Positions 1,722-36,641 of a stretch of DNA of 64,000 nt are shown piece after piece; position 1 is the stretch's first letter; every line of letters starts with the position of its first letter. A program made the translations under genes and the position numbers. The DNA is from Collinsella sp. 4_8_47FAA (GTDB taxonomy: Bacteria; Actinomycetota; Coriobacteriia; Coriobacteriales; Coriobacteriaceae), in assembly GCF_000763055.1 (NCBI RefSeq), contig NZ_KN214135.1, forward strand, positions 168,127 to 232,126, in the 5' to 3' direction. The notes under the pieces are model-generated. The model did not search any database. It was given only the letters and a program-made list of their open reading frames with translations, and had not been told where the DNA came from.

Positions 1722-2228
1722 ATGTTGTTGTTCCTTATCTGCACGCGCAATGGGCACGGCATGCGGCCGCGCGGGCGTGCTTGGTAGTGCGCTAATACAT
1801 ACAAAAACAGGTGCGCACAGAGAGGACGTTGCTCAGCACGCTGGCGATCGCTTTGGCAGCCCTATCACGCGCCGTCCAGACGCAGCAGCTCTAAGCGATG
1901 GAGCAGATTCGCCGCCGGTTAGTATACCCGCGCTTCGCATGCCCCCACGTAAACCACAGATGACGAGGCGGACGGGGTGGGCCTGGCCGATTGTCTCAAT
2001 CTGTAACAGATGCAGGGCAAAACCGGGTCCAAATGTTACAGAACAAGACAGAGGGGGATTTCCGTCCAGTCCAAACCAAATCTCTCAGGCTTCCTGCAAT
2101 TTCGAACATGTGGCCTATAATGTTGCTTTGGTTACGCTATATATTGCGCAGCCATTTAATACGTCGCCCACCGGGGGCCATTAATTCCTATCGCCATATT
2201 GGCTAGGAAGCAATCAAAGGAGGTATCC
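1722..2228. other. Intergenic region between divergent helicase and FHA genes
   Basis: About 500 bp without a credible gene. It holds one copy of the 59-bp palindrome (1992-2050). A possible promoter for the FHA gene has a -10 TATAAT at 2116-2121 with a weak -35 CTGCAA at 2094-2099 (16-bp spacer). Short open frames here lack ribosome binding sites and overlap the palindrome. Confidence 0.5.
1992..2050. repeat. 59-bp palindromic element, single copy (cluster A)
   Basis: Left arm TGTCTCAATCTGTAACA at 1992-2008 and right arm TGTTACAGAACAAGACA at 2034-2050, with a 25-bp centre containing an A-run flanked by G/C blocks. Same architecture (17+25+17) as the copies at 5.5, 11.2, 12.4 and 20.1 kb. 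Confidence 0.9.
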
Positions 2229-5488: not shown

Positions 5489-5708
5489 TGTCTCGATCTG
5501 TAACAGTAAGGGGTCAAAAACCTCTCTAGATGTTACAAATCAAGACATTTGAGTTGACCGCGGACGGTTTGTCTCGATCTGTAACATCTAGCAGGAAAAA
5601 CGGTCCTTAGGCGTTACAGGTTGAGACGTTAAGTTGTGGCTCGATGTAATGTCTCGATCTGTAACAGTTACTCGACAAAAACGGGTCTAGTTGTTACAGA
5701 TTGAGACA
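5489..5708. repeat. Array of three 59-bp palindromes (cluster B)
   Basis: Three elements at 5489-5547, 5570-5628 and 5650-5708, starting 81 and 80 bp apart. Each has a left arm close to TGTCTCGATCTGTAACA and a right arm close to TGTTACAGATTGAGACA around a 25-bp centre. The array fills most of the gap between the kinase stop and the copper promoter. Arms differ at one to three positions, some of them compensated in the opposite arm. Confidence 0.93.
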
Positions 5709-11139: not shown

Positions 11140-11279
11140 TGTCTCGAACTGTAACAGGTACAGGGTTATTGGGCCCCTTGATGTTACAGATCGAGACATT
11201 CGGTCGACGTTTCACCGGTTTGTCTCGATCTGTAACAGTTACGAGCTCAAATAACCTCTAAACGTTACAGATTGAGACA
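11140..11279. repeat. Pair of 59-bp palindromes (cluster C)
   Basis: Elements at 11140-11198 and 11221-11279, 81 bp apart, with 17-bp arms and 25-bp centres. The second ends eight bases before the stop codon of the DUF559-like gene at 11287. Confidence 0.93.
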
Positions 11280-12382: not shown

Positions 12383-12521
12383 TGTCTTGATCTGTAACAG
12401 GAAGACAGTCTTTGAGCCTCTAGTTGTTACAGAACAAGATCTTTCGGCAGCCGCCAACCCTCCGTCTCAATCTGTAACAGTTACGGGCTCAAACAGCCGC
12501 CAAACGTTACAGATTGAGACA
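12383..12521. repeat. Pair of 59-bp palindromes (cluster D)
   Basis: Elements at 12383-12441 and 12463-12521, 80 bp apart. The first lies 20 bp upstream of the likely start of the DUF559-like gene, so any promoter of that gene must overlap the palindromes. The second element ends 36 bp after the stop of the next gene. Confidence 0.93.
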
Positions 12522-13265: not shown

Positions 13266-13680
13266 GGCATCCTCCTCAAACTGATGAACCTCAATTTGAG
13301 CTTACGAGGAGGGTGGGCAGCCACTGTCAGCACGGACAAAATAGGCCTCCGGCTGCAAACCAGATGCTGACCAAACACTTGACGGAATGCTTGACCGAAT
13401 ATGCACACTGGAACAAAGCCGCAGGTAAACATAGACGGCCAACCCGCCCTTTTGAGCCAAGCGCCCCCGGCCACCACAGAAACAGCAGAGCACCACAGCT
13501 CAAGAAGACGCCGAATGGACACTCGCGCGTCGACAAACGAACAAATCGGTCGCAAACCCGCAAGGAGTGTCCCCGAATGCCGGCACATAAGGAACGTCCC
13601 CAGCTGCCGGCACTTGGGGACGTTCCTTTTGGGCCGGCCGTTGGGGACAGCCCTTGACGATTCAGCTGTGAACAGCCGCC
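13266..13680. other. Intergenic region downstream of gltD
   Basis: 415 bp without a credible gene. The right end holds a perfect 13-bp stem (13589-13601 with 13616-13628, GTCCCC/GGGGAC type) whose loop carries CCGGCA. A second GTCCCC and CCGGCA lie just before it. It may end the gltBD transcript, but the T-run is short. I see nothing convincing in 13290-13560. Confidence 0.55.
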
Positions 13681-20047: not shown

Positions 20048-20266
20048 CATCTCAATCTGTAACAGTAAGACCCAATTTTGGCGCCTAGATGTTACAGATT
20101 GAGATGTTTTCGAGAGACGGTTCCGAATGTCTCAATCTGTAACACGGAGGGCCGGCTTTGGCGGCCAGCTGTTACAGATCGAGATATTCCATAGGACCAT
20201 TTCTTCCTGTCTTGATCTGTAACACCTAGGCCCTATTTCCATCCCTAGTTGTTACAGATCAAGACA
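20048..20266. repeat. Array of three 59-bp palindromes (cluster E)
   Basis: Elements at 20048-20106, 20128-20186 and 20208-20266, each exactly 80 bp after the previous one. They lie between the divergent gltB and Nramp genes and fill the middle of the 522-bp gap. Their centres carry T-runs rather than A-runs, as if in opposite orientation to clusters A and B. Confidence 0.93.
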
Positions 20267-22531: not shown

Positions 22532-22659
22532 AACGATCACTCCCCTAACCCAGGATTGAACCTCATGAATGTATGTACCCACAAAAAAGGCGGCACCCAT
22601 AACGGACGCCGCCTTTGAGACATATGTGTCAGAACAGTAAGAAAGATGAGACGCCCGCA

Positions 22660-22724
22660 GTTGCGGTGAAATAGGGACTGAATAGCCCCTCAAACAGGCA
22701 AAACAGTCCGTATTCCACCGCAAC
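22660..22724. repeat. 65-bp palindrome, GTTGCGGTGAAATA family, copy 1
   Basis: Left arm GTTGCGGTGAAATA (22660-22673) and right arm TATTCCACCGCAAC (22711-22724), one mismatch. An inner pair GGACTG/CAGTCC (22675-22680, 22704-22709) strengthens the hairpin. It lies between smpB and the flavin reductase gene. A second copy is at 36573-36636. Confidence 0.85.
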
Positions 22725-22737
22725 TTATGCAGAGTGC

Positions 22738-24209: not shown

Positions 24210-24286
24210 TGGTAGCCCGTACCAGATTCGAACTGGTGATCTCCGCCTTGAGAGGGCGGCGTCCTAAACCGCTAGACGAACGGGCC
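24210..24286 (-). tRNA. tRNA-Glu (anticodon CUC)
   Basis: Cloverleaf visible on the minus strand: acceptor GGCCCGT with ACGGGCT (first pair G-U), anticodon loop containing CTC, T-loop GTTCGAATC, and encoded CCA at 24212-24210. Confidence 0.95.
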
Positions 24287-24303
24287 ATATGTAGCAAATG
24301 CAA

Positions 24304-24377
24304 TGGCTGGGATGGAGGGAGTCGAACCCCCATTGACGGAACCAGAATCCGCTGTCCTGCCATTAGACGACATCCCA
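24304..24377 (-). tRNA. tRNA-Gln (anticodon CUG)
   Basis: Acceptor TGGGATG pairs with CATCCCA. The anticodon stem GCGGA/TCCGT closes a 7-base loop with CTG, the T-loop is GTTCGACTC and CCA is encoded. It lies 17 bases upstream of tRNA-Glu in the same transcript. Confidence 0.95.
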
Positions 24378-24450: not shown

Positions 24451-24653
24451 GCCCCAATTTTGACTTTTTTAAAATTCAGTCAAATTGGCCTAATTTAGTC
24501 CAACCCGTGAAGGACCTGTGAAGCCAACCGCTATACACGAAGGGCAAAACGCCGCGAGCGGTAGCCGTCAACCGTTGGCAGATTCTACCGTGAAAACGAT
24601 AGCACCAGGCAACACAATCGAAGTATCAATGATTGCGTAGATATCGAGGCGCC

Positions 24654-25064
24654 ATGGACGAAGAGCTTGATTACCTATGGGAGACCCTGGGCCTCGAGAT
24701 CACTGCTGACCTTTGGCCCGAACGGGACAAAATCCATCCCACACTGCGCCCCGCCATTACTGTGGTGCAGGCAAAATACCGCCGTGCATCCTTTTTGATC
24801 ATGCGGATGTCATGGCACGCGGGACTCCCCGACCTTAAGCGAATCCAGGCAAGCCTCGTCGAGTTGTCCGGTATGCCGACCGTCATATCCGAGGCACACC
24901 TGGAGCAGCGCCAGCGTGAGCGACTGCAACAGCAGCGGATTCCCTTTATCTGCCCTGGCGTTCAGGCATATCTGCCTTTTATGGACGAGGAGTACTGGAG
25001 CGGCAAGCCCAACAAACACGTAAAGGTCTACGATCCGCACGAATGGGCACAGCTGGCGGGCTGA
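24654..25064 (+). CDS. Short protein resembling the N-terminal part of a MarR-like family
   Basis: 136 residues. The segment around RIPFICPGVQAYLPFM, with the preceding LSGMPTVIS, resembles the sensor half of a group of Firmicute/actinobacterial winged-helix proteins. The DNA-binding C-terminal half seen in those relatives is absent here, so this may be a truncated remnant or a short paralogue. The ATG at 24654 follows GAGGC. It is followed directly by an array of 46-bp palindromes. Assignment is by recalled resemblance only. Confidence 0.5.
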   Translation: MDEELDYLWETLGLEITADLWPERDKIHPTLRPAITVVQAKYRRASFLIMRMSWHAGLPDLKRIQASLVELSGMPTVISEAHLEQRQRERLQQQRIPFICPGVQAYLPFMDEEYWSGKPNKHVKVYDPHEWAQLAG

Positions 25065-25083: not shown

Positions 25084-25253
25084 GGAAAGTGCGTCCCAGA
25101 TTTCAAGCTCAAACTGGCCCCTACTTTCCCGTCGAGCCCTCAACCGGAAACCGTGTCCCGCAATCGAAGCTCAGAATGGGACGTGCTTTCCGCAACCGGC
25201 CACTTTGGGAAAGTGCATCCCATTCTGGAAGCGAATTCCGGGTCGCACTTTCC
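25084..25253. repeat. Array of three 46-bp palindromes, 62-bp period
   Basis: Elements at 25084-25129, 25146-25191 and 25208-25253, starting exactly 62 bp apart. Each begins near GGAAAGTGCGTCCCA and ends near TGGGACGTGCTTTCC, with diverged centres. They fill the gap between two convergent genes. Arms vary more in the first copy. Confidence 0.85.
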
Positions 25254-25260
25254 GCAGCCG

Positions 25261-25620
25261 CTACAGCAACGCCTTGGCCCAAGCCGCTTCCCTAAAGCCG
25301 GGAATCGCAAAGTCGTCGCCCACCAGCAGCGGACGCTTGACCAGCATGCCGTCGGTCGCCAGCAGCTCGTAGCACTCCCGATCCGTCATGCCCGCATCCA
25401 GACGCGCCTTCAGGCCCAGCTCTCGATATTTCATGCCCGACGAATTAAAGAAGCGCCGCACCGGCAGCCCCGAACGAGCAATCCAGGTCGCAAGCTCATC
25501 AGCCGTGGGATTGTCCAAAACGATATCGCGGTCGATATACTCTACCCCATGTTCGTCCAGCCATGCCTTGGCCTTCTTACAGGTCGAGCACTTGGGATAT
25601 TCAACAAACAGTACGGTCAT
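25261..25620 (-). CDS. ArsC/Spx/MgsR-family thioredoxin-fold protein
   Basis: 119 residues. N-terminal redox motif CSTC (Cys11, Cys14), then SGLPVRRFFNSSG and the C-terminal segment RPLLVGDDFAIPGF. These match the Spx/MgsR-like group annotated as arsenate reductase family. It could be a redox-sensing RNA polymerase-binding regulator or a glutaredoxin-type reductase. The ATG at 25620 follows CGGAGG. No arsenic genes are nearby, so arsenate reduction is not supported. Confidence 0.8.
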   Translation of the reverse strand: MTVLFVEYPKCSTCKKAKAWLDEHGVEYIDRDIVLDNPTADELATWIARSGLPVRRFFNSSGMKYRELGLKARLDAGMTDRECYELLATDGMLVKRPLLVGDDFAIPGFREAAWAKALL

Positions 25621-25712
25621 GGGAATCCTCCGAATATAGATCGGCCAACGCAGGCACACGCCACACGAGGCGCCTTCGTATGATGGGCCAATTGTAGCCC
25701 ACGGGTCACACG

Positions 25713-36435: not shown

Positions 36436-36572
36436 TCCGGCCTGCGATAACTAAGGGGTCGCCGCGTTTATCTTGGGGTGCTGCATATACAACGCTGGAA
36501 GGGTCTGAATTGCGCTTTGTCGATATATGCCCTTTTCCCTGATGGGACCGTGCTTGAGGGGCGTCTTCATGA

Positions 36573-36636
36573 GTTGCGGTGAAATACGGATTAATTGAGC
36601 CTTTAAGCTGGCAAACAGTCCTTATTTCACCGCAAC
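36573..36636. repeat. 64-bp palindrome, GTTGCGGTGAAATA family, copy 2
   Basis: Arms GTTGCGGTGAAATA (36573-36586) and TATTTCACCGCAAC (36623-36636), perfect. The centre ends in CAAACAGTCCT as in copy 1 at 22.7 kb, but the matching inner arm has decayed. Confidence 0.87.
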
Positions 36637-36641
36637 TGAAA

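Follow-up and report, generated by a model that had tools for sequence, protein, structure and literature searches.

Clade-restricted intergenic arrays of a 46-bp dyad at a 62-bp period in Collinsella, candidate sites for a double-stranded-DNA-binding protein

Introduction

The BIMEs of enterobacteria are intergenic mosaics in which inverted palindromic units alternate with defined linkers, often between converging genes, and some of them are bound by proteins, gyrase and IHF among them. Operator and iteron arrays form a general class of phased protein-binding sites. REPs are intergenic, dispersed, and palindromic, and many are found beside converging genes, as described in passages that mention neither Collinsella nor Actinobacteria (PMC3733652). 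REPINs are characterized, in the passages devoted to them, as inverted doublets with conserved ends and a variable core of fixed length, and their clusters contain near-identical tandem copies in which hairpin changes are compensatory (PMC3116915). Palindromic candidate RNAs have been reported from microbiomes, and the one passage on Collinsella there concerns a ribosomal leader (PMC8040213). A search of the open-licence literature, which provides weak evidence of novelty, returned no published account of palindromic, tandem, or inverted repeat arrays in Collinsella or Coriobacteria, as judged from titles and opening lines of abstracts, and a wider search for tandem palindromic arrays gave no title on Collinsella. 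The 46-bp arrays analyzed here are a real chromosomal feature that has apparently remained undescribed so far.

We analyzed an array in a 64,000-nucleotide stretch of the genome of Collinsella sp. 4_8_47FAA, referred to as the window, together with its counterparts in other genomes. Its relation to the systems above can be stated as follows. (i) Like BIMEs, the Collinsella arrays are made of alternating inverted units with defined linkers. They differ from them in their strict 61/62-bp period, their strongly diverged units, their constrained half-sites, and their occurrence in a clade of Actinobacteria, and inspection of the 46-bp consensus revealed no REP/PU sequence of the GTAG type. (ii) With REPs and REPINs they share the intergenic, dispersed, inverted palindromic doublet, the conserved ends, and the fixed-length variable core, whereas near-identical copies are missing and compensatory pairing is slight compared to the REPIN/RAYT systems of Pseudomonas and other bacteria, as far as the REPIN passages describe these (PMC3116915). 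The end tags GTAG and CGTC are absent from the ends, which read GGAAA and TTTCC; CGTC occurs inside the arm consensus. (iii) Regular spacing and a half-site conservation that is not explained by pairing are features of operator and iteron arrays that are also found here, with a protein that is a candidate only; in contrast to such arrays, those of Collinsella occupy about 16 places in the genome and are not bound to one operon or origin. (iv) Regularly interspaced, palindrome-containing units recall CRISPR, but the Collinsella copies are only about 69% alike and their cores share a consensus instead of being unique spacers.

Results

The first-pass annotation had placed three 46-bp palindromes at positions 25084, 25146, and 25208 of the window, with GGAAAGTGCGTCCCA as the first arm and a period of 62 bp. 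Direct reading confirmed the coordinates, the arm, and the period: the start-to-start distances are 62 and 62 bp, and both linkers measure 16 bp (Table 1). The palindromes are imperfect, with arm-to-arm matches of 10/14, 11/14, and 12/14, and the array, which is located between a 143-aa ORF and an ArsC-family gene that converge, was not called as a repeat by TRF or by a second repeat finder. Genes for tRNA-Glu and tRNA-Gln are found nearby (window positions 24210 to 24377).

Table 1. Array elements, flanking genes, and copies of the second dyad family, in window coordinates
Feature	Position	Strand	Remarks
46-bp dyad, copy 1	25084..25129	+	Right arm decayed: GGCCCCTACTTTCC
16-bp linker 1	25130..25145		cgtcgagccctcaacc
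46-bp dyad, copy 2	25146..25191	+	
16-bp linker 2	25192..25207		
46-bp dyad, copy 3	25208..25253	-	Core orientation opposite
143-aa ORF	24633..25064	+	Without Pfam family; stop just ahead of array
ArsC-family gene	25261..25659	-	Converges on array; PF03960, E 2e-13
Second family, single copy	1992..2050		
Second family, 3 copies	5489..5708		Intervals 81 and 80 bp
Second family, 2 copies	11140..11279		Interval 81 bp
Second family, 2 copies	12383..12521		Interval 80 bp
Second family, 3 copies	20048..20266		Intervals 80 and 80 bp

A genome-wide search for further copies, as the annotation had proposed, was then evaluated at two levels. With up to 3 mismatches, the two-arm pattern occurred at 10 places in the 2.28-Mb genome (40 contigs) compared to 0 for the reversed control, which excludes chance. 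A sequence-only search model, built on 28 of 30 copies after dropping C5_49892 (orientation ambiguous) and C5_50201 (weak), gave 94 matches in the same genome at an E value of up to 0.1 with both strands counted; once strands were merged and the loci read, a hand count arrived at about 55 copies at 16 places. For the analysis of the period, we parsed 108 arrays from 22 genomes, comprising the loci of the genome itself, 22 orthologues of the window site, and 60 fetched regions from eleven relatives, the last being a nonrandom sample picked from the best-listed matches. These arrays contained 1 unit (23 arrays), 2 units (16), 3 units (39), 4 units (16), 5 units (7), 6 units (4), 7 units (2), or 8 units (1). 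Of 209 intervals, 208 were either 62 bp (176) or 61 bp (32), and one was 57 bp, under a parser that extended to neighbors within 58 to 65 bp and accepted seeds at any distance; the linkers were correspondingly 16 nt (176), 15 nt (32), and 11 nt (1). The period is thus not a chance property of the three window copies, and the fixed element length, fixed spacing, and variable core proposed for them proved right. One locus of the same genome additionally contains copies of 44 and 45 bp, which the fixed-length parser skipped.

The anatomy of the unit was derived from 73 representative copies, each standing for a cluster formed at 40/46 identity. At least 90% of them share one base at positions 1 to 5 (GGAAA), 12 to 14 (CCC), 33 to 35 (GGG), and 42 to 46 (TTTCC), as well as T at position 19. 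Positions 6 to 10 and 37 to 41 are variable, with mostly T/C or G/A at 7, 9, 10, 37, and 40. Conservation is looser in the 18-bp core, whose consensus, about [AG]GAATnnGnnCTCAGAAT, gives each copy an orientation. The linker consensus is itself weakly dyad symmetric (3.2/8 matches, compared to 2.0/8 for shuffled letters), and no coupling between the two linker halves was detected within the parsed copies. Since both the 46-bp unit and the linker have dyad symmetry, dyad centers alternate approximately every 31 bp.

The annotation had also proposed a second, unrelated family of similar design, and this proved right. Its 59-bp dyads have the form TGTCTCGATCTGTAACA-N25-TGTTACAGATCGAGACA and are spaced at intervals of 80, 81, or 161 bp. 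Helical phasing, considered as the cause of the period, is attractive for 62 bp, which is close to six turns, but is not a general explanation, since 80.5 bp does not correspond to whole turns. Three other palindromic sequences were noted in the window. Single palindromes of about 66 bp, running from AGTTGCGGTGAAATA to a mirrored CCGCAACT end, are found at positions 22659 to 22725 and 36572 to 36637 and form a possible third family. A long inverted repeat of the AAGGAACGTCCCC type with 48-nt arms that are 81% complementary, REP-like in appearance, is located at positions 13561 to 13656.

Matches to the 46-bp model with E values of up to 0.01 were obtained in 14 of 39 genomes, namely, the source genome, 12 of 23 other genomes of the genus (38 to 72 matches each), and, among the 15 genomes outside the genus, a single weak match in one (G029, E 0.003). 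The 46-bp family is limited to one Collinsella clade, with 13 positives among the 24 genus genomes searched. The second family was found in 13 of the 39 genomes, which are the very same 13, with a reversed control of 0 throughout; both families therefore entered or arose in one clade, and their codistribution points to shared machinery. Among the 23 other genus genomes, those with arrays, and no others, carry an orthologue of the 143-aa ORF, and all 19 loci from named genomes with this orthologue beside an array belong to Collinsella, mostly C. aerofaciens. The ORF is probably a clade marker. It has longer paralogues in open frames of 323 to 443 aa.

The arrays remain at fixed loci and vary there in register, by whole units. 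The comparison of strains for copy number that had been suggested was made at several sites. (i) At the window site, a search of 43 genus genomes showed that the array is kept in all 22 relatives that have the ORF orthologue, each retaining at least 1 unit. Single units were found in 11 genomes, 2 units in 1 genome, and 3 units in 10; the 2 units of G052 follow from the model parse, and the third unit of G011, with AGAAA as its start, was added by visual inspection. In plain alleles, the gap between the ORF (from codon 141) and the ArsC gene is 84, 146, or 208 bp. There are three distinct 3-unit alleles, some of them with an additional leader sequence. Since alleles at this site are internally nonhomologous, the gaps in a whole-array alignment were of mixed length. 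(ii) Upstream of dnaK, 30 loci were read from 42 genomes with a match. The 21 array-clade genomes among them had 0 (1 genome), 1 (4), 2 (4), 3 (10), or 4 (2) units, so that 20 of 21 retain at least 1 and only G017 is without a recognizable array; the 9 genomes outside the array clade had none. In G019, which is without the 46-bp family, this position is occupied by a different tandem array with a period of 71 bp and 2.3 to 2.7 copies (L189, 2186 to 2376), a single case. (iii) Between similar alleles, 9 of 11 gaps of at least 10 bp at dnaK measured 62 or 124 bp, and 11 of 13 at a 394-kb locus measured 60 to 62, 125, or 183 to 186 bp, counted over genome pairs, which are nonindependent events. 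The analysis was informative only at these two loci; in groups 3, 5, and 6, usable pairs or gaps were few or absent. Some short alleles look like joins in which a unit's left part is followed by the right arm of a unit further along, as at dnaK in G018 and G023 compared to the 3-unit allele. Such copy-number differences are a ready marker for strain typing.

Young copies were not observed. None of 430 same-array pairs reached 41/46 identity, compared to 0.07% of 42,787 pairs across locus groups, the best at 44/46, and sharing an array does not make two copies more similar than copies from different places. We thus see loss, exchange, and allele replacement in the arrays and no sign of recent tandem duplication or transposition. 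The annotation had suggested a general process that builds or keeps such arrays. Keeping agrees with the half-site constraint described below and the whole-unit change among relatives, whereas building was not observed in progress, given the absence of young, near-identical neighbors; the suggestion is thus supported in part.

To quantify constraint, changes were counted in 74 complete-linkage families containing 208 of 262 distinct units; complete linkage was preferred since single linkage had chained one family to 125 members. The 16 invariant columns (GGAAA, CCC, and their mirror) accumulated 33 changes (2.1 per column), compared to 203 in the 12 arm columns (16.9 per column) and 157 in the 18 core columns (8.7 per column), a constraint that may be exaggerated because the model came from strong copies and undersamples weak or decayed ones; low-scoring array neighbors were accepted to lessen this bias toward intact ends. 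In the 46 families with alignable right linkers, the 16 linker columns had 106 changes, whereas the 16 invariant columns had 20 (P 2e-15), so that the invariant columns change approximately fivefold less than the linker.

The two arms of a copy hardly covary. Left-right arm matches were 10.93 compared to 11.16 after shuffling in 30 copies, 10.99 compared to 10.92 in 239 units (P 0.16), and 10.73 compared to 10.53 in the 73 representatives (P 0.057), at most a weak trend toward the compensatory hairpin changes of REPs and REPINs. In the 28-copy alignment, pairing was 87.2% compared to 89.0% after shuffling; this apparent anticoupling disappeared in the larger sets of units, and we make no claim for it. 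In the second family, coupling was weakly positive (P 0.018). Hairpin pairing is therefore not mainly what selection keeps, and, rather than a conserved hairpin, the data favor half-sites that would be read independently in double-stranded DNA; the weakly positive coupling in both families leaves room for a hairpin component. In one allele (L059, from G023), the left arm of the second unit differs as a block, GGAAACTGCGTCCC compared to GGAAACCGTATCCC, from those of L055, L057, L060, L065, and L067; the arms match perfectly in these five and imperfectly in L059. The block looks like a single conversion or templated event.

Discussion

We consider the chances about even that the window array is one of a set of clade-specific, intergenic, BIME-like dyad arrays that act as candidate binding sites for a protein on double-stranded DNA, with a role in chromosome architecture. 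The 62-bp unit consists of a 46-bp dyad, in which the half-site GGAAA-N6-CCC is mirrored around the variable 18-bp core, and a 16-bp linker. In this proposal, the half-sites would most likely be contacts of a sequence-specific double-stranded-DNA-binding protein arranged in a row on 1 to 8 units, and spacing would matter if neighboring proteins touch. Units may be removed or swapped by slippage or by unequal recombination at the conserved, short arm sequences; arrays of identical units may be unstable or never become fixed; and purifying selection would hold the half-sites. The role of the arrays would most likely be in local chromosome architecture, through topology or insulation between adjacent, often convergent, genes.

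It is unlikely, in our judgment, that the arrays are instead old mobile repeats of the REP, REPIN, or MITE type, that is, inverted doublets spread by a transposase that are now decaying and are kept by chance and recombination. The copies do resemble REPs in being intergenic, dispersed, palindromic, and in many cases beside converging genes, as the REP passages describe (PMC3733652), and Y1_Tnp transposases are present in the same genome. However, these transposases are also found in array-negative genomes, the pairwise comparisons revealed no young copies, the near-identical tandem copies and compensatory changes described in the REPIN passages (PMC3116915) are not seen here, and the half-sites are under constraint. 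In addition, within the 6 kb around a 348-aa RAYT-like gene of the genome, no arm of either family was found at up to 3 mismatches, apart from one isolated match to the family-1 arm that belongs to no array. A REP/RAYT origin was rejected, since the distribution of Y1_Tnp does not follow the arrays and the one RAYT-like gene examined has no adjacent arrays.

Quite improbable is the alternative that the palindromes function as hairpins in RNA or single-stranded DNA, either as bidirectional terminators or as stabilizers of mRNA 3' ends. Each window copy folds better than its shuffled versions (z -2.3, -2.4, and -4.5), and the array is situated between converging genes, as expected under this alternative. 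It is opposed by the scarce covariation of the arms and by the fixed 62-bp spacing, for which terminators have no need. Moreover, the T-tract terminator search found two sites, neither within positions 25084 to 25253, and no Rfam family scored above its gathering threshold at the window arrays or at those of four other loci (L050, L048, L108, and L133). A neutral tandem satellite, duplicated in ancient times and now changing by unequal recombination only, would account for the whole-unit length changes at dnaK and the 394-kb locus but is very improbable, since young duplicates and uniform decay would be expected, neither of which was seen, and since half-sites change fivefold less than linkers.

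If selection keeps arrays of diverged palindromes at a fixed period, they would be functional noncoding DNA in a common gut bacterium, as opposed to the debris of repeats, and would offer a direct handle on chromosome organization in a little-studied class of actinobacteria. An extension of the proposal is possible yet doubtful: at least two unrelated, codistributed, fixed-period families (62 and 80/81 bp) may be candidate protein lattices with selected half-sites and spacing and with in-register recombination, other lineages may have periods of their own, and such arrays may represent a new class of nucleoid architecture.

As to their genomic context, the arrays are intergenic; many are located between converging genes and some between codirected or diverging genes, according to a codon-usage gene caller, which makes these orientations approximate. 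In three genomes (G039, G023, and G013), arrays were closer to dnaA than expected from a uniform distribution, with mean relative distances of 0.42, 0.35, and 0.35 (Kolmogorov-Smirnov P 0.08, 0.02, and 0.11, respectively), where the chromosome length of G039 is an estimate. In these genomes, the terminus region seems poor in copies of both families. Among arrays with a majority orientation, the type-A strand was co-oriented with replication in 7/8, 9/12, and 9/10 cases in the three genomes. Origin proximity, terminus sparsity, and replication co-orientation are suggestive only, the loci being orthologous and hence nonindependent.
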